64,000 nt of DNA. Source: Candidatus Thiodiazotropha sp. (ex Codakia rugifera) (GTDB lineage: Bacteria > Pseudomonadota > Gammaproteobacteria > Chromatiales > Chromatiaceae). The translations under genes were made by a program, and so were the position numbers. The stretch spans positions 277,501 through 341,500 of the forward strand of contig JAHXHN010000001.1 of the NCBI GenBank assembly GCA_025656675.1, read 5' to 3'. The notes beneath the pieces were generated by a model. It worked only from the letters and a program-made list of their open reading frames with translations. It was not told the origin of the DNA and did no database searches. Positions 54,718-63,977 of the stretch are shown piece by piece; position 1 is the first letter of the stretch; the number at the start of each line of letters is the position of its first letter.

Positions 54718-55521
54718 TCACTCCTCTCGATTGCCCAACAGCCTTTTACGCCGCTGAGATTCGCTGATGGCATCACGAATTCTGATCAGGTCGCCATCCA
54801 ATGCCGGCTGCCCATGCCACCATTGATAATCCGGAGACTGATGACCGACTCCAAGGAGGACATTTTCACGGTGCTGTATCAGATTTTGCCGTAGCTTCGG
54901 CAATACATCTGGCTGCGTCTCAGTAACAGAGGACATCAACGATTCACCCTCTGCCAACTTGAGGTCGGCAATCGCCAGCTGCCTTTTTCCATTGGCAAAC
55001 TGCTCGCGAACATAGCGGGGACTATGACACCCCGAACAGATCCATTGCCGCACTTCAGGGCCCCGATCAGGCGCCATGGTGTCACCATGATCACCATTAT
55101 GGAGGTGACAATAGCTGCAACCTGGAGCCCGGTAGTAACCAGGTTGCAAGGGTTTTTGCCAATCCTGTCTTCCCGCTTCGAGGCGATTGATGACACCATG
55201 TTTTGATGTGCTGTAACTGTGGCTGGCAGGACCCTCATGGCAGCTGCTGCAACTTTCATCTCTTCTCGCCCGCATGCCTGAGTCCTCATGGCTGTCACCA
55301 TGGCAACTGCTGCATTCGGTTTTGGATACGGTTGAGTGAGGACCCTCCCGCCATTGCTTAACCAGTACCGGATCCCGCTCTGTGTGACAGGTGATGCACT
55401 CGGTCTCTGTAAAGGGTCCTGGGGGGACCTGCTGCTCCGCTAAGGCGGTATGAGCTGCCAGGCAGAGTATGCCCGGTAGCCAGGCAAATGATATAACCCG
55501 ACAGGCGCTGGTCTTTATCAT
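54718..55521 (-). CDS. Pentahaem cytochrome c, related to the hydroxylamine oxidoreductase family
   Basis: This is a periplasmic multihaem protein of 267 residues with a signal peptide (start MIKTSACRVISFAWL, cleavage near AHTALAEQ). Five CxxCH motifs are present: CITCH, CSSCH, CSSCH, CSYCH and CSGCH. The spacing and the KHGV and YYRAPGCSYCHLHNGDH segments echo the middle part of octahaem hydroxylamine oxidoreductases, so it looks like a shortened paralogue of its upstream neighbour. The start at 55521 shares one base with the stop of the octahaem gene. It could serve as electron shuttle or as partner subunit. The catalytic role is not known. Confidence 0.85.
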   Translation of the reverse strand: MIKTSACRVISFAWLPGILCLAAHTALAEQQVPPGPFTETECITCHTERDPVLVKQWREGPHSTVSKTECSSCHGDSHEDSGMRARRDESCSSCHEGPASHSYSTSKHGVINRLEAGRQDWQKPLQPGYYRAPGCSYCHLHNGDHGDTMAPDRGPEVRQWICSGCHSPRYVREQFANGKRQLAIADLKLAEGESLMSSVTETQPDVLPKLRQNLIQHRENVLLGVGHQSPDYQWWHGQPALDGDLIRIRDAISESQRRKRLLGNREE

Positions 55522-56873
55522 CAGTTGTGTTTCCGATTGTAGTCGGTGTACGCACCTTTCATCCAAATCTCGTGTGAAGGTTCAGGTGTGATTTCAGCCC
55601 GCTGCTCTGTTTCAGAAAGATGGTACAACTCGCTGGCTCTGGTCTCGATACGATCCAGTGAGGCAGCCATTTTCCGGTGTCCGGATTCAACGCCTGCCTG
55701 ATTGCCGTGGGCAGCCGATTTATACGCACCCAGATTGTCGAAATACCACATCTCGAAGTAGTCACGTTCGATGGCTGAGACGTTGTAGAAGGCTGATGCC
55801 TGACCCTCGAAGAAACCGATACGCTCTCTGGGCCAGAGACGGTCCATCCAGTCCATGGGATAGGGTGGACGCTCACCAGCGGCAGGTTGCAACAGATTGT
55901 CGTTACGCAGATCCTTTAGGATATCCTCCGCTGCATAGAGTTTCTGCCAGGCTTGCTTACGTTCCTGGTCCAATCCAGTCAGCCACTGTCTGGCCTGCTC
56001 CTGGTCGTGGCAATCGCTACACAGTTTGATCCATTTTTTACGCAGCACCTGATTCTTGGACGTGTGAGGATTAACCTCTCGCAGGCCGAATTTCCATACA
56101 GACTTATGGGCAACCTGGTGGCGACCGCTGTCCATGTGACAGTAGGCACAGGTGGGTGCTTTGTAGTTGCCCTTGGTCAGCGGTTTCGACCAGTCCCAGT
56201 CATCACCCTCGGCCAGGTAGAGTCGGCCGTGGGCGGAGCCGAAGTATGTCTCGTCATCTGGATGGGGAGGCCCAGAATGGCAGGTGATGCAGGCCTCAGG
56301 GCGGCGCGCCTCCGCCGCGTCAAAACGGTGCCGGGTATGGCAGGAGTCACACTTGGTGGCCACTGAGTGGCACTGGATACAGGATTGGACTTCGCCCTTG
56401 GGTTTGTCAACGAAGTGTTTGGCATCCACTGCCCGTTCCATAGCCAGCACATGACTGGGAAATCCATAACGGGCTTCATCCTTAAACTCGCCGTGCTGTT
56501 TCTGATGGCAATTACCACAGACCTCAGGCGTGGGTAGTCTGAGGTGTTGATGATCATTGCCATGGCAGTCGTTGCAGTAGACCGGATTGTCGCTTTGGCC
56601 ATGCCGGCTGACACGCCAGTCCGCGACTATGCCGGGAGTGATCCCCTCATGGCATTGGATACACAGTGCTGCTTTGAATACACCCTCTACACTCTTGACT
56701 GACTGGTAGAAGTTGTCTGGGTCCCAATAGCCTTGTACCGGATCGGGTGACCAGTAGCGGGAGTAGAGACCCGTCCCTGTTCCTCCTTTGCTCCAGTGGA
56801 CATAAGCAAAGCCTGCTGACACAACCAGCAGCGCAATGACAGGAAGCGCCAACAGTATCAATCGATAACGCAT
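55521..56873 (-). CDS. Octahaem cytochrome c of the hydroxylamine oxidoreductase (HAO) family
   Basis: This is a 450-residue protein held by an N-terminal helix (YRLILLALPVIALLVVSAGFAYV) or an uncleaved signal. Eight CxxCH motifs are visible: CIQCH, CNDCH, CGNCH, CIQCH, CDSCH, CITCH, CAYCH and CSDCH. The fourth to sixth lie in KCDSCHTRHRF and AARRPEACITCHSGPPHP-like context diagnostic of HAO. HAO-type proteins either oxidise hydroxylamine (with a P460 crosslink) or reduce nitrite/hydroxylamine (without it). I could not assign the crosslinking tyrosine, so the direction is undetermined. The start at 56873 overlaps the upstream monohaem gene by 16 bases. The ERDYFEMWYFDNLGAYKSAAHG region is conserved in the family. 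Confidence 0.9.
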   Translation of the reverse strand: MRYRLILLALPVIALLVVSAGFAYVHWSKGGTGTGLYSRYWSPDPVQGYWDPDNFYQSVKSVEGVFKAALCIQCHEGITPGIVADWRVSRHGQSDNPVYCNDCHGNDHQHLRLPTPEVCGNCHQKQHGEFKDEARYGFPSHVLAMERAVDAKHFVDKPKGEVQSCIQCHSVATKCDSCHTRHRFDAAEARRPEACITCHSGPPHPDDETYFGSAHGRLYLAEGDDWDWSKPLTKGNYKAPTCAYCHMDSGRHQVAHKSVWKFGLREVNPHTSKNQVLRKKWIKLCSDCHDQEQARQWLTGLDQERKQAWQKLYAAEDILKDLRNDNLLQPAAGERPPYPMDWMDRLWPRERIGFFEGQASAFYNVSAIERDYFEMWYFDNLGAYKSAAHGNQAGVESGHRKMAASLDRIETRASELYHLSETEQRAEITPEPSHEIWMKGAYTDYNRKHN

Positions 56874-57382
56874 GATTTTTGATCGTATCGGACGGTTCGC
56901 CACCAACGCAGCAGCCCCAATCCTGTCAACAGCAGGAAGGGAGACAAGGTGAGGGTACGGATCAGCCATGGACGACCGGTCGTATCACTCTCAACAGGCT
57001 TTTTACTGACTATGGATTGCGTGGCATGGCGTTCCAGATAGGCGAGCAGTATCTTTTGATCCTGTGTTTGCATGACCTCTACTTTGCCCTTCAATCCCCC
57101 AAAACGATTTGCAACATCCATTAACACGAACATACTTGATACCAGGTCACGCCACTCTGTTGCTGTATGACGATCAGGTCCCGGCAGGTTGTGGCATTGG
57201 GTACAGAATTGGTTAAGTAATGCAGCACCTGGAGAATGAGCCTCGGGTAGGGAGGCTGCAGTAAGACCCGGTGGGAGTTTGTCTTTATATACCTCACATA
57301 GATCGATATCGGCCCAGGTGTGGCTTGCGGCGACAGGCAGTGACATAAATAAGCACATGAGCAGAAGGAGTGTCCGCTTCAT
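56858..57382 (-). CDS. Membrane-anchored monohaem cytochrome c
   Basis: This is a 174-residue protein with a signal peptide (LLLMCLFMSLPVAA, about residues 5-19), one haem site CTQCH near residue 60 and a C-terminal transmembrane helix (LIRTLTLSPFLLLTGLGLL, about 139-160). The haem domain would face the periplasm. It lies between the polyferredoxin fusion (4-base overlap) and the octahaem gene (16-base overlap). It is well placed to carry electrons from the membrane protein to the octahaem cytochrome, replacing the NrfH/HaoC-type partner often found with such enzymes. The role is inferred from position. Confidence 0.83.
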   Translation of the reverse strand: MKRTLLLLMCLFMSLPVAASHTWADIDLCEVYKDKLPPGLTAASLPEAHSPGAALLNQFCTQCHNLPGPDRHTATEWRDLVSSMFVLMDVANRFGGLKGKVEVMQTQDQKILLAYLERHATQSIVSKKPVESDTTGRPWLIRTLTLSPFLLLTGLGLLRWWRTVRYDQKSCVID

Positions 57383-59748
57383 GCTCGCCTCCGTAAGCGT
57401 TTCAAAACCCTAAAACTGGCAAGCATCCCTTCAGCCGCTTTACGACCGGCAGCCATGGCGTTGACGGCGAGATTAGGGCCTAGTGTGTTGTCCCCGCCGG
57501 CCCAGATTTTGGGGTGTGTGGTGTGGCCTTGAATATCCACACGGATGTTTCCATTGGGTTCTGTGGCGATGTCTAAAACGGCCAACCAGGGAGGAGGCGC
57601 AGGTTGTTGGCCGAGGGCAAGAAGCACCTGGCTGGCATTGATCACCTGTTTGCCGCTGGGTGTATCGAAATGCACCCTGGTGACTTGCTGTGTGCCCTCG
57701 CAGAGGATCGGGGCGTGTTCCAATACGAACCGGCCTCCCTCTTCGCGGGCTAATGCGATCTCCTTGGGCGATGCACGTAGGCCGTCGGCCGGTCCCCGGT
57801 AGGCAATGGTGACTTCTGCTCCCAGACGCAGTGCTGATCGGGCACAATCCATCGCAGTATCACCGCCACCGAGCACCAGCACGTGCTGTCCTTCCAATGA
57901 CTCCCTTGCACCGGTATTGATTTTTTCCAGCCAGCCTAGGGCCTGTTCAACACCGGGGAGGGTTTGTCCCGGCAATTCAATGGTTCGGGCTTTTTGTGCA
58001 CCCAGACCCAGAAAAATCGCATCATGGTTTTCAAGCAGCGCGGATAACATGGCCTTGTCCACCAAGGTATCAAGCACAAAATGGATACCCGCCTGTTCCA
58101 GTATTGCTTGCCGACGATCCAGCAGAGACTTATCAAGTTTGAATGATGGAACGCCAGTCTGGAGCAGGCCGCCGATCTTGTTCGAGCGATCATAGACAGT
58201 GACTTCTACGCCTGATCGATTCAGACGTTCAGCACAACTCAATCCTGCAGGGCCTGCACCAATAACCGCTACCCTGTGGTCGCTGCGATGTGTCGGTGTG
58301 GACGGTTGCCAACCGGCATCCAGCACCCGGTTTGCAATAGTTCGCTCAACCGCACCGATGGTGACAGCACCTTCCATTTTGCTACGCGTGCAGGCACCTT
58401 CACAGAGTCGGTGCTGGGGACATATTCTGCCGCACACTTCCGGTAGTGGCGAGGTGGCGTGAGCGAGGTCACCGGCCTGCTTCCAGTCCCCCCGGGCAGT
58501 GGCTTCCAACCAGTCTGGGATGAAGTTACCCAGTGGGCAGGCATTGCGACAACCGGGCACGCCACAATCGAGGCAGCGTTCGGCTTGAAGTTGCAGATCT
58601 CCCAATGAGAGCGATTGTTCCGTCTCGTTCCAATCTGCCAAACGTGCAGCCGATGGGCGATGGGCAGGTTCTATCCGGGGTTCAGAAACCTTTTGCTTAC
58701 GTTTAAGCAGATAGCTGGCATCCTGACGCAGAGAGGGACGAAATAAATTGCGCACATCATGAATTGCCAACGCATCGGTGGGACAGGAGATAATACAGCG
58801 GGCACAGCCCATGCAGTCTTCGAGTCCGGTGACTTTTCCTGTCATTTTGCCTTGTCGCCAGACCGGGATACCCATGTCGCAGACCTGTTCACAGCGCTGG
58901 CAATCGACGCACCGCCGGGTGTCCATCTCAATGCCATAGAAACCGGCATGATTGAGCAGACCGAAGGTGGCGCCATAGGGACAGAGGTAGCGGCAGTAGA
59001 AGCGGTTGCCCGTGATCGGAATGATGAAAAAGCTGCCGAAGTAGGTAATCCCCACCACCAATCCGAACAGGCCGACCAAGGTCGCGGTCCAGGCATTGGG
59101 TGGAAACTGGGTGGCCACCATCACACCCAGGTACCAAGTGAAGAAGAACCATTTGCTATGGCGCAGGCGCCAGGCCCAATCGCTGCGCAGGGAGAAACGG
59201 CGGAACGGAAAGCCCACGGTCTCGCGTATGCCCACACAAGGGCAGCCAAAGCCACAAATGATCCGTCGCCCGAAAAGAAAAACCAGCAGCAGAACAAGAA
59301 AAAAGGTAAGCGTCCCCGGTGTGTGCAGGGCGGGAAACACCGGCTGGTTCCAGACGTAACCCGTATAGGGCTCGAACATCGGTGAGAGCCAGGGGATCAG
59401 CCACCAGAAGGCGGTGACCACCGTTACCAGAATGATCAGACGTTTGCGTGTATAGGGGTTCTGTTCCGCACGGATACGCCAAAGGCCAAATCCAAGGATA
59501 ATGGCATATTCGGTAAAGCGGTTGAGCCAGATCGGACTCTCGTACAGATAGAGCCAGGACTCATTCAGCCAGCCAAGGAAGGCTAAGGTGAAGGCGACCA
59601 TGGCAATTGCCATGACCCACCCGCGATAACGACCCGGCAAGGTATCCTGAAGCGTCGCCCCACTGGGTCGAGCACTGTATGTCAGATGGGATGCGGGTTG
59701 AATGACTGGATTCATGGGTGTGCTTTTACCGGTTTTACTGGCATTCAC
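57379..59748 (-). CDS. Fusion of NapH-type membrane polyferredoxin with GltD-type FAD/NAD(P)H oxidoreductase
   Basis: This is a 789-residue two-part protein. The N-terminal half has about five transmembrane helices (roughly residues 43-60, 76-92, 104-121, 145-160 and 222-243), cysteine pairs at 165/169/171 and 252/256, and two [4Fe-4S] ferredoxin motifs (C280/283/286/290 and C312/315/318/322) as in NapH/RdxA/CcoG proteins. The C-terminal half, from about 380, is like the glutamate synthase small subunit: Fe-S cysteines 392/395/400/404 and 439/443/449/453, FAD loop GAGPAG at 497-502, NAD(P)H loop GGGDTA at 627-632 and GGDN at 751-754. It would link cytoplasmic NAD(P)H to the membrane and the downstream periplasmic cytochromes. 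No glutamate synthase large subunit is present. Confidence 0.88.
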   Translation of the reverse strand: MNASKTGKSTPMNPVIQPASHLTYSARPSGATLQDTLPGRYRGWVMAIAMVAFTLAFLGWLNESWLYLYESPIWLNRFTEYAIILGFGLWRIRAEQNPYTRKRLIILVTVVTAFWWLIPWLSPMFEPYTGYVWNQPVFPALHTPGTLTFFLVLLLVFLFGRRIICGFGCPCVGIRETVGFPFRRFSLRSDWAWRLRHSKWFFFTWYLGVMVATQFPPNAWTATLVGLFGLVVGITYFGSFFIIPITGNRFYCRYLCPYGATFGLLNHAGFYGIEMDTRRCVDCQRCEQVCDMGIPVWRQGKMTGKVTGLEDCMGCARCIISCPTDALAIHDVRNLFRPSLRQDASYLLKRKQKVSEPRIEPAHRPSAARLADWNETEQSLSLGDLQLQAERCLDCGVPGCRNACPLGNFIPDWLEATARGDWKQAGDLAHATSPLPEVCGRICPQHRLCEGACTRSKMEGAVTIGAVERTIANRVLDAGWQPSTPTHRSDHRVAVIGAGPAGLSCAERLNRSGVEVTVYDRSNKIGGLLQTGVPSFKLDKSLLDRRQAILEQAGIHFVLDTLVDKAMLSALLENHDAIFLGLGAQKARTIELPGQTLPGVEQALGWLEKINTGARESLEGQHVLVLGGGDTAMDCARSALRLGAEVTIAYRGPADGLRASPKEIALAREEGGRFVLEHAPILCEGTQQVTRVHFDTPSGKQVINASQVLLALGQQPAPPPWLAVLDIATEPNGNIRVDIQGHTTHPKIWAGGDNTLGPNLAVNAMAAGRKAAEGMLASFRVLKRLRRRA

Positions 59749-59754
59749 CTACAG

Positions 59755-60099
59755 CTAGAAAACCAGTACTTTATCTGCTGCCAATGTGCGTTCGGCCAGT
59801 GCCTGCATGGTGCTGCGCCGGGCACCCACGGCAATATCTTCATCGGTGATGCCGCGAGCATCCATACAGGTGCCGCAAAGCAGCACCTCACCTTTGCGTA
59901 TGACAGCGTTGAGCATCAATTCCATGTTGTAGAATCCCTGCGGCACCTTCTGTCCGCGTTTTGCACAGGCCACGGCGTCAGCCATCAGAAATACCATGAC
60001 CTTCGAATCTTTATGGATCAATGCCTTAGCCAGACGCAGGCCGTTATAGCTGCGCTCGGTCCCATAAGGGGGGTCATTCAAAATAATGAGTACGTCCAT
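59755..60099 (-). CDS. DsrE/YchN family protein
   Basis: This is a 114-residue cytoplasmic protein of the DsrE/F-like fold (N-terminus VLIILNDPPYGTERSYNGLRLA). Cysteines are at 45, 75 and 78 (CGTCMDARG). In sulfur oxidisers DsrE-type proteins carry persulfide on cysteine during sulfur transfer; more distant relatives bind other partners. It is the first gene of a leftward operon with the polyferredoxin fusion 7 bases downstream and the multihaem cytochromes after it. Whether it transfers sulfur here is unknown. Confidence in the fold is good, in the function low. Confidence 0.82.
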   Translation of the reverse strand: MDVLIILNDPPYGTERSYNGLRLAKALIHKDSKVMVFLMADAVACAKRGQKVPQGFYNMELMLNAVIRKGEVLLCGTCMDARGITDEDIAVGARRSTMQALAERTLAADKVLVF

Positions 60100-60198
60100 A
60101 ACGGTATCCTGTTGAATTTAAGATGTTGTGTGACTGACCAAACGCTGTTCCATGTTCCACAGGGTCAACTTTCCAACGGGCACATACCCCTTTATATT

Positions 60199-60220
60199 CA
60201 ATTGATCACTTGATTAATTG
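60199..60220. promoter_or_regulatory. Imperfect palindrome upstream of the DsrE-polyferredoxin-cytochrome operon
   Basis: The 22-base sequence CAATTGATCAC followed by TTGATTAATTG has half-sites matching at 9 of 11 positions. It lies about 100 bases upstream of the first gene of the operon. It resembles FNR/CRP-family half-sites (TTGAT) but the spacing differs from the FNR consensus, so the binding protein is unknown. Confidence 0.35.
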
Positions 60221-60559: not shown

Positions 60560-61882
60560 TCAGATCTGTCCGGTCAACCAGCGTGCAGTACGTAGCAGGC
60601 GTGCATCGTCGTTACGTCGTCCGATCAGCTGCACACCTACTGGCAAACCGCGTCGGCCGGTCAGCAGTGGCAGGGTGATAGCCGGCACGCCAGTGAGTGA
60701 CCATAATACATTGAAAGCGGCGCTACCGGTGCTGCTGTGACCAATCGGTGCCTCACCCGGCGCTGCCGGTGTAATGACCGCATCGTAGCGATCAAAAACC
60801 GCCTCCAACCCAGCATAGAGGGTATCCCGCCACGCCATGGAAGCAAGATAGTCAACTGCACTTATTGTCCGGCCCTCTTCGATTGCAGCACAGGTTTCTG
60901 CGGCTAGTCTGTCAGCACCCCGATCATAGTAGTGACGGAGATTATGAGCCATCTCGGTCAGCATGATGCAGCGGTGGGCCTTTACCCCTTCATTGAAAAT
61001 TCCCGGCAGCTCAAATGCGTCGCAATGTTCACCAAGCACATCGACAAGTTCAGCGAACCCCTCGGCGCAGTCGGGCTCGATATCCGACCATGCGGGTGAT
61101 TTGACGAATGCAAGCTGTGGCGTTACCGGTGGGTTGGTCAGTGTCGTTTCAAGAAGTCGAGGCTGAGCCATTGGCATGGTGTCTGGATCGGCCAGGTCGT
61201 GACCGGCCAGTACATCAGCAAGCAGGGCCGCATCTTCGATGGTACGACCAAACGTACCGACTGTGTCGAGTTGTCGTGAGGTACGCAGCACACCGCTTCG
61301 CGGGATCATGCCGAAGCTTGGTTTGAAACCGACAATACCGCAAAAAGAGGCCGGTCGGATGACCGAACCGCCGGTCTGTGTACCCACTGCAAACGGTACC
61401 ATGCCACTGGCTACTGCAGCTGCGGAACCGGACGATGACCCTCCCGGTGTGTGCTCCAGATTATGTGGGTTGCTTGTTTTAGCGGGCGCCAGATAGGCGC
61501 ACTCTGTCGTTACTGTCTTGCCCGGAATAATCGCACCGGCTGCACGCAGACGGGCAACCAGCCAGGCGTCCTCTGTCGGTTGTCGTCCGCTATCGACCGC
61601 ATTACCATTCTCGGTTGGCAGATCATGGGTATCGATGATGTCCTTGATACCCACTGGCAGCCCGTGCAATGGCCCGAGGGGGCGTCCTGTCCGGCGATAC
61701 CCATCAAGCATCCTGGCCTGGATCAACGCCACTTCTTCATCCACACAGGTCCAGGCCTGGATTGACGCTTCCCGTGCTTTGATACGCTGCAGACAATTTG
61801 TGACCAGCTCGACCGCACTGAGTGCCCCGCTGGACAGGCGTTCACGTAAAGCCAATGCCGTCAGATCGGCCTGATCGGTCAT
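60560..61882 (-). CDS. Amidase-signature family amidase
   Basis: This is a 440-residue hydrolase of the amidase-signature family (acyl amide to acid and ammonia), starting [10 protein letters not shown] at 61882. The Ser-cisSer-Lys triad is visible: Lys80 (VGIKDIID), the GGSSSGSA loop around residues 147-154 and the nucleophile Ser173 ([16 protein letters not shown]). The overall sequence is like that of general amidases rather than GatA, since no gatC or gatB is near. It lies downstream of a TRAP transporter, which suggests the imported substrate or its product carries an amide bond. The substrate is not identified. Two in-frame starts further upstream overlap the dctM stop and look less likely. 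Confidence 0.88.
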
Positions 61883-61907
61883 GTTGCCGCTGATCAGTGG
61901 CGCTTCT

Positions 61908-63329
61908 TTAACGCCCATAGACCTGGTCCGGCAGCCAAAACGCGATCTGTGGAAACTGGTACAGAATGACCATGGCAAACACCACCATCGCCAGGAACGG
62001 ATAGTTGCCCTTGAAGATCTCGTTCAGCTGTACCTGAGGCGGTGCTATGCCTTTGAGGTAATAGGCCGACATCGCCATTGGCGGGGTCAGGAAAGAGGTC
62101 TGCAGATTAAGCGCGACCAGGATGCCGAAGAACAGCGGATCTATGCCGAAATGGGGCAACAACGGCAGAAAGATCGGTACAAAAATGATAATAATTTCAG
62201 ACCACTCCAGTGGCCAGCCGAGGATAAAGATGATCACCTGCGCCAACAGCAGGAACATTATCGGTGAGATCTCCAGACTGGTAACGAACTCACTGATGAT
62301 CTGTTCGCCACCGAGATAGGAGAACACCGATGAGAAGGTCCAGGAGCCGACAAACAGCCAGCAGACCATCGATGTTGTTCGTACCGTCAGATAGACGGAT
62401 TCCCGCAGGCGCTGCCAGGTGAAGGCGCGATAGGCAAAGGTCAGCAACAAGCCGCCCAATGCACCCACAGCGGCAGCCTCGGAGGGTGTCGCCAGGCCGA
62501 AAAGGATTGCGCCAAGCACTGCCAGAATCAGAAATGCGAGGGGGAAGAACGAAGTCAGCAACTGCCAGATGATCTGGCTGACTGAGATATCACCGATCTC
62601 CTCTTTGGTCGGTTTCGGTGCCAATTGTGGTTGCAAAGCCGAGCGCAACACCACATAGCTGACGTACAGACTGGCCAACAATAAACCAGGAAACAGGGCG
62701 CCGGCATAGAGCTTTACAATCGAGATACCGGAAGCTGCAGCATAGACAATCAGCATGATCGACGGCGGGATCAGAATACCCAGGGTACCGCCTGCGCAGA
62801 TGACACCGGCGGCCAGACTGGTGTTGTAGCGTGCCTTGAGCATTGCCGGAAAAGCAAGCAGCCCCATCAAGGTTACCACCGCGCCGACGATACCGGTTGC
62901 TGTAGCGAACAGGGTACAGGTGATCAAGGCGGCTACCGCCATCGATCCGGGAACGTTTCTTGCTGCAATATTCAACGTATGGAACAGTCTGGCCACGATG
63001 TTCGCGCGCTCGACGATGTAACCCATGAACAGGAACAGCGGCACTGCAGTCAGTACATCATTCGCCATGACTGAATAGGTCTGATTGACGAACAGGTCAA
63101 AGATCCTGTTATTGAACAGGCCATCAATCCATAGCTGGATCTGTGTCAGCTGATCCGCATCGGCAGCAACCGCCTTGTTATAGGCACGCCACATGCGATC
63201 GGCATCGAAATAGGCGTAGTAACCGAAGCCGATGCCCATTGCCATCAGCGTGAAAGCAACCGGGAAGCCAAGCAGGATGATGAACAGAAAGATCGCCAGC
63301 ATGAATAACGCAACAATAGGATCAGACAT
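61908..63329 (-). CDS. dctM: TRAP transporter large permease (DctM family)
   Basis: This is the membrane subunit that couples sodium entry to uptake of a substrate brought by a periplasmic binding protein (473 residues, longer than the usual 425-440). It has about twelve transmembrane helices, with PLFLFMGYIVERANI, the GILIPPSIMLIVYAAASG motif and the C-terminal LNLQTSFLTPPMAMSAYYLKG. The extra length lies in a 40-residue loop after the first two helices (about residues 43-85). It pairs with the small permease, whose gene ends 3 bases upstream. The amidase gene follows after 25 bases. Confidence 0.92.
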   Translation of the reverse strand: MSDPIVALFMLAIFLFIILLGFPVAFTLMAMGIGFGYYAYFDADRMWRAYNKAVAADADQLTQIQLWIDGLFNNRIFDLFVNQTYSVMANDVLTAVPLFLFMGYIVERANIVARLFHTLNIAARNVPGSMAVAALITCTLFATATGIVGAVVTLMGLLAFPAMLKARYNTSLAAGVICAGGTLGILIPPSIMLIVYAAASGISIVKLYAGALFPGLLLASLYVSYVVLRSALQPQLAPKPTKEEIGDISVSQIIWQLLTSFFPLAFLILAVLGAILFGLATPSEAAAVGALGGLLLTFAYRAFTWQRLRESVYLTVRTTSMVCWLFVGSWTFSSVFSYLGGEQIISEFVTSLEISPIMFLLLAQVIIFILGWPLEWSEIIIIFVPIFLPLLPHFGIDPLFFGILVALNLQTSFLTPPMAMSAYYLKGIAPPQVQLNEIFKGNYPFLAMVVFAMVILYQFPQIAFWLPDQVYGR

Positions 63330-63332
63330 GGT

Positions 63333-63977
63333 TCAACTGCGCTCCTGGTCGGAATATTCTTGTTTTAGTCCGCGACCATCTTCGCGGGATGTGCCTGCAG
63401 CAAAATCACCCGCTTCCAATTCCTTTTCACGGGCCAGCCGAACCTCCGTCTCCTCGACATCTTCTGCAGCCACTAGCCACTCACCGGTGCGGATGCAGAT
63501 GATGCAACGGAATACCTGGGCGATGCCTTGGATAAACAGCAAAATACCAGCGGCGACGATGACGGTCTTGAATTGAAAGATGGGTATGCCCGCCGGACTG
63601 TTGACACTGACTTCAAGGTAGCGCCATGATCGCTCGGCATATTTCCAACCGGAGATGATCAGGGCGATGACACCGGGAAAAAAGAACAGGAAATAGAGCA
63701 CCAGTTCAACACGTCCCTGGGTGCGTGGTTTCCACAGTCGGTAGATGAAGTCGCCGCGTACATGCCCCCCTCTCGAAAGGGTGTAGGCACCTCCCATCAT
63801 GAACAGTGCGCCATAGGTGATATAGGAGAGATCGAATGCCCAGCTGGTCGGTGCGTTGAATCCGTAGCGCACCACGACCTCGTAACCAACTCCGATGGCC
63901 ATGACCATGATCAGCCAGGCAAAGGCCTTGCCAAACCAGGCCGATAGGCGGTCAGCGAATCGTATATAGCCGAGCAT
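63333..63977 (-). CDS. dctQ: TRAP transporter small permease (DctQ family)
   Basis: This is the small four-helix subunit of a TRAP transporter (214 residues). It contains the family segments YEVVVRYGFNAPTSWAFDLSYITYG near residues 28-52 and GGHVRGDFIYRLW. The C-terminus is a charged cytoplasmic tail (about 172-214). It starts at 63977, 23 bases from the window end, so the periplasmic binding protein (DctP) gene may lie just outside. With such a long charged tail it fits the DctQ group seen with mannitol/chloroaromatic-type TRAP transporters, but the substrate is unknown. Confidence 0.9.
   Translation of the reverse strand: MLGYIRFADRLSAWFGKAFAWLIMVMAIGVGYEVVVRYGFNAPTSWAFDLSYITYGALFMMGGAYTLSRGGHVRGDFIYRLWKPRTQGRVELVLYFLFFFPGVIALIISGWKYAERSWRYLEVSVNSPAGIPIFQFKTVIVAAGILLFIQGIAQVFRCIICIRTGEWLVAAEDVEETEVRLAREKELEAGDFAAGTSREDGRGLKQEYSDQERS

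Follow-up and report, generated by a model that had tools for sequence, protein, structure and literature searches.

Textbooks present HAO-family octahaem cytochromes as enzymes of nitrification and anammox, and in environmental genomes such proteins readily attract a nitrogen-cycle annotation. The locus described here, in a 64,000-nucleotide stretch (the window) of a Candidatus Thiodiazotropha-like genome, raises the question of what such a cytochrome does when it is encoded beside a DsrE-family protein, a membrane polyferredoxin-GltD fusion, and two further cytochromes. Our tentative answer, close to but short of an even call, is that the operon forms the core of a conserved redox system linked to sulfur in sulfur-oxidising bacteria. 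Under sulfane-sulfur control, this relay would pass electrons derived from NAD(P)H to a periplasmic octahaem that works as a reductase, probably on a sulfur substrate.

All five open reading frames lie on the minus strand (Table 1). Their positions and one-strand arrangement are as given in a preliminary description, and our recount agrees with its CxxCH totals (one, eight, and five in the monohaem, octahaem, and pentahaem proteins) and with its overlaps of 4 (57379-57382), 16 (56858-56873), and 1 base (55521). The gap that it placed between the DsrE and fusion genes is also present, but with the GTG at 59748 as fusion start it measures 6 rather than 7 bases. A start at 59715, leaving a gap of 39 bases, is possible because a close relative (locus L071) is 778 aa long, as if it began from Met12 of the window protein. 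Promoter and terminator scans did no better than shuffled sequences. The earlier treatment of the operon as one functional unit is supported.

Table 1. Operon genes, pocket codons, and putative operator, in window coordinates.
Feature	Position	Strand	Basis
DsrE-family sulfur-carrier protein, 114 aa	59755..60099	-	PF02635 E=7.8e-26; Cys75 and Cys78 (CGTC)
Membrane polyferredoxin-GltD fusion	57379..59748 (start may be 59715)	-	Domain searches, hydrophobic segments, Fe-S motifs
Monohaem cytochrome	56858..57382	-	1 CxxCH, hydropathy, alignment of 30 sequences
HAO-superfamily octahaem cytochrome	55521..56873 (best start 56873)	-	PF13447, PDB matches, 8 CxxCH
Octahaem Pro203-His204 codons	56262..56267	-	Aligned to catalytic Asp267-His268 of Nitrosomonas HAO
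Pentahaem cytochrome, shortened HAO-like, conserved GHQSPDYQWWHGQPALDGDL tail	54718..55521	-	PF13447 E=7.7e-10; alignment of 48 sequences
Putative operator, TATTCAA-N3-AT-N3-TTGAATA type, one mismatch	60195..60216	-	95 bp upstream of DsrE start

Conservation of the core of this arrangement extends well outside the genus; this core comprises a polyferredoxin (usually fused to GltD), an octahaem of the HAO family, and a shortened cytochrome resembling HAO. A scan for the octahaem gave 118 matches, and 80 named loci among the matches listed were examined; matches to the fusion below 45% identity (plain GltD) were left out of the neighbourhood counts. Among these 80 listed loci, a polyferredoxin lay upstream of the octahaem at all 71 with room for one, and a pentahaem relative lay downstream at 70 of the 71 with room; the six listed loci with no polyferredoxin match all had less than 1300 bp upstream. 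Where the polyferredoxin was clear of a contig edge (64 loci), it was fused to GltD at 48 and had no GltD module at 12, while four split or truncated forms (L082, L093, L094, L124) fall outside both counts. All 17 fusion-bearing genomes of the class have the octahaem next to the fusion, if those are included in which the octahaem is broken over several frames (G068, locus L063) or only fusion residues 16-454 and the octahaem tail are present (G298, locus L067). Within the genus, a full-length octahaem is carried by only 8 of 22 genomes.

Since the core recurs across several classes, it is no chance assembly, and its recurrence across loci and genomes rules out both a chance neighbourhood and an oddity of the window. 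The search for the same five-gene order in other genomes thus bore out the core; DsrE as first gene proved patchy (upstream at 20 of 44 loci) and the monohaem gene was not constant. The gene set had not been recognised as a described system, and our literature search likewise found no description of it; it is apparently an undescribed gene set of many sulfur oxidisers, including clam and tubeworm symbionts.

The earlier domain assignments hold. The DsrE protein carries the PF02635 domain but is not a TusD/DsrE equivalog (33 bits, cut-off 89). In the fusion, residues from about 1 to 350 are NapH-like with 4Fe-4S motifs, and two CX3CP (165, 252) and two CX2CX2CX3C (280, 312) motifs mark a NapH-type polyferredoxin, although the score against TIGR02163 (69 bits) is under the cut-off of 213. 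Residues from about 353 to 780 hold the Fer4_20 and Pyr_redox_2 domains of a GltD-type NAD(P)H/FAD/Fe-S module, although its TIGR01318 score of 418 bits falls short of the cut-off (483). The monohaem protein matched no Pfam family and has a hydrophobic N-terminus (a signal peptide, as judged by eye) and a C-terminal membrane anchor; it is not essential to the gene set, since other loci replace it with a dihaem form or with an anchor that lacks haem, or show no recognisable counterpart. The pentahaem was modelled well by AlphaFold2 (pLDDT 90), and of its 11 Foldseek matches at E<=0.001, 10 are chains of the HAO family and one is the hypothetical multihaem protein 4qo5.

The octahaem carries a hydrophobic anchor segment at its N-terminus and matches PF13447 (E=9.7e-44, measured on a longer ORF); its sequence matches in the PDB are 4n4j, 6h5l, 6hif, and 1fgj, with 6h5l the best (E 8e-65). 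Together with the eight CxxCH motifs found in 80 of 80 listed relatives, this places it in the HAO superfamily, where it forms a separate clade. In the alignment, all 80 listed relatives have Pro at the place of the catalytic Asp (Asp267 of Nitrosomonas HAO, NeHAO), keep the His of the Asp-His pair (His204 here, His268 in NeHAO), and have no Tyr within three columns of Tyr467 of NeHAO, the residue that cross-links to haem P460. The kustc1061 row was out of register at this Tyr column, and its Tyr was placed by pairwise alignment. The octahaem thus represents an HAO-family clade whose catalytic pocket is altered as judged by alignment; the argument rests on sequence because the AlphaFold2 model (16 rows) reached a pLDDT of only 51. 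The 6h5l protein retains the Asp, as do two of the three further HAO-like octahaems encoded in the window's genome. Because the Tyr is absent and Pro replaces the Asp, we reject the reading as a hydroxylamine oxidase.

One rival reading is a reductive role in nitrogen metabolism. The octahaem could be a periplasmic, NAD(P)H-fed reductase of nitrite, hydroxylamine, or NO, comparable to the HAO-type reductases of anammox bacteria, with regulation of a sulfur type merely because the hosts respire nitrogen oxides with sulfur. Its superfamily, the reducing complex 6h5l among its closest solved relatives, the retained His204, and the loss of the cross-linking Tyr, which is the rule in reducing members, would all fit, but the Pro in 80 of 80 listed relatives replaces an Asp that the 6h5l protein keeps. 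The gene narG is somewhat commoner in fusion-bearing genomes (5/17 versus 58/352 others), but not significantly so (p=0.18). The preliminary description noted that octahaem proteins of this family usually pair with cytochromes of NrfH/HaoC type; no four-haem (NrfH/NapC-like) gene was present within the 80 listed loci; a further ORF with at least three CxxCH motifs occurred at only three of them (five, five, and seven haems), none being a tetrahaem protein of NrfH/NapC/HaoC type. These counts cover CxxCH motifs within the DNA around the loci, so the gene for such a partner could lie elsewhere in the genome. A NapC/TorC-like gene adjoins another octahaem of the window's own genome. We consider a nitrogen-oxide reductase unlikely and do not favour the nitrite/hydroxylamine reading of the operon; as with the oxidase, an ordinary nitrite or hydroxylamine reductase is not supported, given the absent Tyr, the Pro, and the lack of a four-haem gene at these loci.

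The predicted regulation of the operon points to sulfur. A relative of an ArsR-rhodanese regulator was found upstream at 41 of 44 loci and not at the other three; it is clearly divergent (>=55% identity over >=150 residues) at 35, while at three Thiobacillus loci it lies on the same strand and is only 46% identical. In the window's genome the regulator is on another contig (C4), away from the operon. The rhodanese cysteines Cys185 and Cys190 (CRGxxC) are kept in all 46 aligned regulators and mark the only columns with Cys in at least half of the rows, the ArsR domain having no conserved Cys; the score against the BigR model is 46 bits (cut-off 155).

Searched as an exact palindrome, the window's upstream site matched only itself, so we used instead a consensus derived by eye from the divergent regions of ArsR-rhodanese genes in other genomes. 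Of 46 divergent regions, each with a minus-strand regulator at >=55% identity and a known next gene no more than 500 bases away, 38 contain this dyad at <=2 mismatches, versus 0 of 920 shuffles; the count of 38 partly reflects choice because the consensus was picked from these 46 regions after the window dyad had been noticed. Less affected by that choice is a genome-wide search: at <=1 mismatch, the 4.65-Mb genome contains only two sites, in the regulator promoter and in the promoter of the window operon. Within the window the operon site is the best by far, the next best having four mismatches. Position and predicted operator thus tie the gene set to the ArsR-rhodanese regulator.

Other neighbours and the hosts themselves are consistent with this. 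Besides DsrE, the upstream sulfur genes include VTT-rhodanese (27/44 loci) and TauE (5/44), and NifS occurs at only 2 of the 80 listed loci; the low counts of DsrE, TauE, and NifS weigh against the sulfur scheme. Among genomes of the class, dsrA is present in 16 of 17 that bear the fusion versus 103 of 352 others (Fisher 8e-8), or 15/17 versus 97/352 at the curated cut-off; these statistics ignore shared ancestry, and the 17 genomes span 14 families. One fusion-bearing genome (G101) had no dsrA match and another (G252) only dsrA pieces, below the curated cut-off. The earlier hint that the DsrE partner indicates a sulfur link therefore holds, since sulfur genes and the regulator recur in the neighbourhood and genomes with the fusion tend to carry dsrA. 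All the same, a regulator that senses sulfur and hosts that oxidise it are no proof that the octahaem has a sulfur substrate.

From these features we infer a substrate and a direction of electron flow. The regulator would sense sulfane sulfur through its rhodanese cysteines and then come off the operator that precedes the DsrE gene. Electrons from NAD(P)H would next enter at the GltD module and move through its own Fe-S clusters to the membrane polyferredoxin, which may deliver them across the membrane, via an anchored small cytochrome or a haem-free substitute, to the periplasmic octahaem/pentahaem pair. At this point the octahaem, with neither P460 cross-link nor catalytic Asp, would reduce its substrate, most likely a sulfur species such as polysulfide, a sulfur oxyanion, or an organic per- or polysulfide, while DsrE and rhodanese partners could handle sulfane sulfur in the cytoplasm. 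The likeliest role would be to dispose of reactive sulfur or mobilise it, and to keep redox in balance while sulfur is being oxidised. The path proposed in the preliminary description, from NAD(P)H through fusion and monohaem to the octahaem and pentahaem, fits this anatomy, but neither NAD(P)H entry nor the monohaem step is general because GltD is absent at 12 of 64 loci and a haem-bearing anchor at many.

Alternatively, electrons may flow in the opposite direction: the octahaem would oxidise some sulfur compound in the periplasm, and the polyferredoxin-GltD protein would reduce NAD(P)+ with the electrons gained, for use in CO2 fixation. In the Dsr pathway, DsrL-type GltD proteins probably return electrons to NAD(P)+ in this way, and the HAO family includes oxidases as well as reductases; the hosts look like sulfur oxidisers and, in this class, usually carry dsrA. 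However, transfer from periplasmic haems to NAD(P)+ would be uphill with no evident proton-driven step, and it is typically the reductive members of the family that have lost the P460 cross-link. We regard this reverse chain as improbable.

An FA_hydroxylase-family gene could suggest another use for the cytochromes. An FA_hydroxylase relative lies upstream at 34 of 44 loci, downstream at another (L090), and on a separate contig in the window's genome, with three His boxes in 40 of the 43 sequences found; it has no place in the sulfur relay scheme. The cytochromes might serve this diiron enzyme or some other membrane-lipid pathway, possibly related to arsenosugar or sulfur lipids, for which the sulfur genes would give building blocks, consistent with the VTT-domain protein and with ArsS within 10 kb downstream at 13 of 47 loci. 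Diiron hydroxylases, however, normally receive electrons on the cytoplasmic side, and no hydroxylase was found upstream at 10 of the 44 loci, so we consider such a role very unlikely. Least probable is an extracellular or inter-cytochrome electron outlet, a redox valve whose octahaem has no specific substrate: several multihaem partners and an NAD(P)H input would suit it, but not the conserved His at the pocket position.

If the favoured NAD(P)H-fed relay has a sulfur substrate, annotating such octahaems as nitrogen-cycle enzymes would be misleading, and a so far overlooked step in the oxidation of sulfur, possibly one that handles reactive sulfur at the cost of NAD(P)H, becomes testable; the HAO enzyme family may then act on sulfur too. 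More loosely held is the broader view that a whole clade of HAO-family octahaems left nitrogen chemistry for a sulfur substrate. In that view a dedicated polyferredoxin-GltD conduit would supply the clade with electrons from NAD(P)H, and ArsR-rhodanese proteins, as sulfane-sulfur sensors of a new class that recognise an operator of their own, would control it in sulfur oxidisers ranging from animal symbionts to magnetotactic bacteria. The operator and regulator offer a direct experimental handle on the gene set.

Compared with known octahaem systems, the window protein shares eight CxxCH haems and PF13447 with NeHAO (1fgj/4fas), Kuenenia 4n4j, and the hydrazine dehydrogenase 6hif (E about 1e-46 to 1e-64), but differs from them in its Tyr and Asp positions (80/80 listed), its separate clade, and its partners. 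The closest match, Kustc0457/Kustc0458 (6h5l), keeps Asp-His; Kustc0458 presumably lacks the Tyr cross-link as well, and the partner in that complex is not known to be a polyferredoxin or a shortened HAO-like pentahaem. Octahaem tetrathionate reductase (OTR) and the sulfite reductase MccA are periplasmic octahaem enzymes acting on sulfur oxyanions, MccA having an unusual CX15CH haem site. Neither identity fits the window octahaem, which has no TIGR04315 (OTR) match, no PDB sequence match to either enzyme at E<=1, and eight CxxCH sites in all 80 listed relatives. A separate, true OTR is encoded in the same genome. Like the sulfane-sulfur repressors SqrR, BigR, and SoxR, the regulator is an ArsR-type protein encoded beside sulfur genes with a dyad operator, but it differs from SqrR and BigR in having no conserved Cys pair in the ArsR fold, so that sensing would sit in the fused rhodanese domain. 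The membrane protein, finally, resembles NapH/NosR-type polyferredoxins in its NapH-like segment and its CX3CP and 4Fe-4S motifs, and GltD/AegA/NfnB-type modules in its GltD_gamma-family domain; it stands apart from both in scoring below the curated NapH and GltD cut-offs, and in that here the two are fused and encoded beside an octahaem.

The five open reading frames, all on the minus strand, are arranged as the preliminary description had it, and their coordinates bear out its overlaps (4, 16 and 1 bases). The gap between DsrE and the fusion, put there at 7 bases, comes to 6, and the true fusion start may be 33 bases further downstream than 59748. Pfam and NCBIfam back the assignments of four of the five proteins, while no Pfam family was found for the monohaem protein. 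By hydropathy and motifs, the fusion begins with a membrane domain that carries a pair of CX3CP motifs and a pair of ferredoxin motifs, and the GltD-type module follows it; hydrophobic segments lie at the C-terminus of the monohaem protein and at the N-termini of the octahaem and pentahaem, with anchor and signal peptide distinguished by eye. This cofactor order suggests a path from NAD(P)H to the octahaem/pentahaem pair, in which electrons would pass through FAD to the Fe-S of the GltD-type module, then via the membrane polyferredoxin to the anchored cytochrome, and finally to the octahaem and pentahaem for reduction of a periplasmic substrate.

Genes of the operon, with strand and basis of assignment
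Feature	Position in window	Strand	Basis
DsrE	59755-60099	minus	ORF + Pfam/NCBIfam
Polyferredoxin-GltD fusion	57379-59748	minus	ORF + Pfam/NCBIfam
Monohaem cytochrome	56858-57382	minus	ORF; no Pfam family
Octahaem	55521-56873	minus	ORF + Pfam/NCBIfam
Pentahaem	54718-55521	minus	ORF + Pfam/NCBIfam

Within the genus, 8 of 22 genomes, the window's own (4.65 Mb) among them, carry a full-length octahaem; the best match among the other 34 genomes compared was 37% over 297 residues (G048). The fusion, counted with ordinary GltD hits (returned in many genomes) left out, is present in 17 of 369 class genomes spanning 14 families: near full length, or in pieces covering most of it, in 16, and as residues 16-454 only in genome G298. 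The octahaem adjoins it in all 17, though broken in G068, partial in G298 and sometimes partial at contig ends. In the one-contig genome G068 (L063:12500-14140), the octahaem coding sequence is scattered across several frames beside a full-length fusion, and in G298 (L067:7982-10442) the partial fusion stands next to an octahaem tail and a pentahaem relative, an arrangement that would fit loss or misassembly of the middle.

A contig scan with a 16-row octahaem alignment gave 118 matches, the best 80 of which were examined as loci, with neighbours counted only where DNA sufficed on the relevant side. These 80 include Thiodiazotropha, tubeworm symbionts, Thiogranum, Lamprocystis, Thiohalobacter, Sulfuricaulis, Thiobacillus, Sulfuritalea, Magnetococcales, Rhodospirillales and two Nitrospinota MAGs; since nearly all come from metagenome bins, isolated odd placements may be binning errors. 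The core gene order recurs in these best 80 of 118, with a polyferredoxin upstream of the octahaem at 71/71 loci and a pentahaem relative downstream at 70/71 (exception L159). Among 64 polyferredoxins clear of contig edges, 48 are fused to the GltD module, 12 are unfused (Magnetococcales, Alphaproteobacteria, Nitrospinota) and four are split or truncated. The monohaem slot is variable, holding a monohaem, a dihaem or a haem-free anchor, the last (about 70 residues, starting AHHxxxH) at 17 of the 80. The octahaems of L065 and L066 carry such a haem-free anchor sequence, with its HH, fused to their N-terminus (16-row alignment), which suggests that the small anchor may work directly with the octahaem. 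The NrfH/HaoC-type pairing named beforehand as usual for the HAO family did not appear: CxxCH counts found no four-haem gene in the best 80 of 118 loci, and further ORFs with at least three CxxCH occur at three (5, 5 and 7 motifs). Other neighbours in the same set are VTT-rhodanese (27/44), DsrE (20/44), TauE (5/44) and a NifS-type desulfurase (2/80). At 13 of 47 loci with room (L090, L097, L099, L109, L114, L120, L123, L124, L129, L133, L145, L146, L151), the arsenosugar radical-SAM gene ArsS follows the octahaem within 10 kb on its downstream side; several of these loci also hold a methyltransferase or glycosyltransferase.

The octahaem matches the solved HAO proteins 4n4j, 6h5l, 6hif and 1fgj, and CxxCH is kept at all eight haem sites in 80/80 relatives (best 80 of 118). 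In a 46-row tree, all 27 rows of its family fall into a single group (SH-aLRT 100); the outgroup has long branches, whose order is not readable. Nitrosomonas Asp267-His268 aligns with octahaem Pro203-His204 (Pro and His each 80/80), and none of these 80 has a Tyr within three columns of the place of the cross-linking Nitrosomonas Tyr467. Loss of the P460 cross-link in other HAO members goes with reduction, and its loss from this sequence points to a reductase. Electrons might instead run inward from the octahaem side through the same cofactors, a direction that fits less well with a reductase. Three further HAO-superfamily octahaems occur in the same genome (L079:7430-8932, L080:8525-9976, L081:3770-5212; contigs C7 and C3), two keeping the Asp-His pair and the third without a match to the pattern used; the L080 copy has as neighbours a NapC/TorC-like cytochrome and, at L080:4839-6443, a true octahaem tetrathionate reductase (TIGR04315).

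The confident pentahaem AlphaFold2 model (mean pLDDT 90) had eleven Foldseek matches at E<=0.001, ten HAO-family chains and the hypothetical multihaem protein 4qo5. Residues 80-190 align best to the 4n4j stretch holding HAO haems 5-8, and a weaker second alignment begins at HAO haem 1; the pentahaem therefore looks like a shortened HAO-like protein that would lack the catalytic fourth haem, and probably serves as an electron-transfer partner. Six betaproteobacterial versions inspected have only three CxxCH.

A relative of the ArsR-rhodanese, a putative sulfane-sulfur regulator, lies upstream at 41/44 loci with room (best 80 of 118): 35 divergent at >=55% identity over >=150 residues, three partial, and three (Thiobacillus) same-strand at 46%. 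In the window's genome, amidase and TRAP-type transporter genes occupy the upstream side (60560-63977), as in the close relatives L071 and L075; regulator and hydroxylase take that place in L072, L073, L074 and L077. The genome's own ArsR-rhodanese (87% identity) and FA_hydroxylase (85%) stand together on contig C4 (C4:174244-175833, within L164, C4:168001-182000), away from the operon. Close to this pair is a block of four genes; two of its proteins have starts resembling those of Tat substrates, and it also includes a cytochrome with seven CxxCH. Divergent regions beside the regulator in other genomes share the dyad TATTCAA-N3-AT-N3-TTGAATA, a consensus picked by eye once the palindrome in the window was known, which at up to 2 mismatches occurs in 38/46 regions versus 0/920 dinucleotide shuffles. 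The whole genome holds exactly two sites at 1 mismatch: one precedes the window's DsrE by 95 bp, and the other lies in the ArsR-rhodanese/FA_hydroxylase intergenic region on C4. Four more have 2 mismatches, and the reversed control pattern gave 2 sites with no more than 2. At the equivalent place, L075 has a site with 1 mismatch and L071 one with 3. The putative operator occurs at 1 mismatch only at the operon and the regulator, which links the two in trans. Participation of the hydroxylase in the system is an unlikely alternative, for which its family's presence at 34/44 loci with room (best 80 of 118) speaks; it was not found upstream at the other ten. Across 46 aligned regulators the ArsR domain has no conserved cysteine, and the rhodanese CRGxxC motif keeps its two cysteines in 46/46. 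PMC10451225 describes SoxR of Hyphomicrobium, an ArsR-type repressor, as sulfane sulfur-responsive, and by analogy the fused ArsR-rhodanese may respond likewise.

With genomes counted as independent of ancestry, dsrA (E<=1e-30) is present in 16/17 fusion-bearing versus 103/352 other class genomes (Fisher p 8e-8); it was not found at that threshold in fusion-bearing G101, and G252 gave only pieces below the cut-off. Such an association with hosts that oxidise sulfur falls short of proof that the substrate is a sulfur compound. Two dsrA copies in the window's genome exceed the family cut-off (C3:808695 and C2:508770). For narG (E<=1e-100), counted in the same ancestry-independent way, the figures are 5/17 versus 58/352 (p 0.18). 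A nitrogen compound as octahaem substrate, which its HAO kinship had suggested in the form of nitrite or hydroxylamine, is a less likely alternative, as the lost Asp and the sulfur regulon both point elsewhere.

The gene set had not been recognised as a described system, and a keyword search of open-licence literature found no published description, nor did the portions of PMC9226611, PMC11267869 and PMC7787665 within it contain one. PMC11237559 deals with lucinid symbionts and an octahaem tetrathionate reductase, which belongs to another family than the operon's octahaem.
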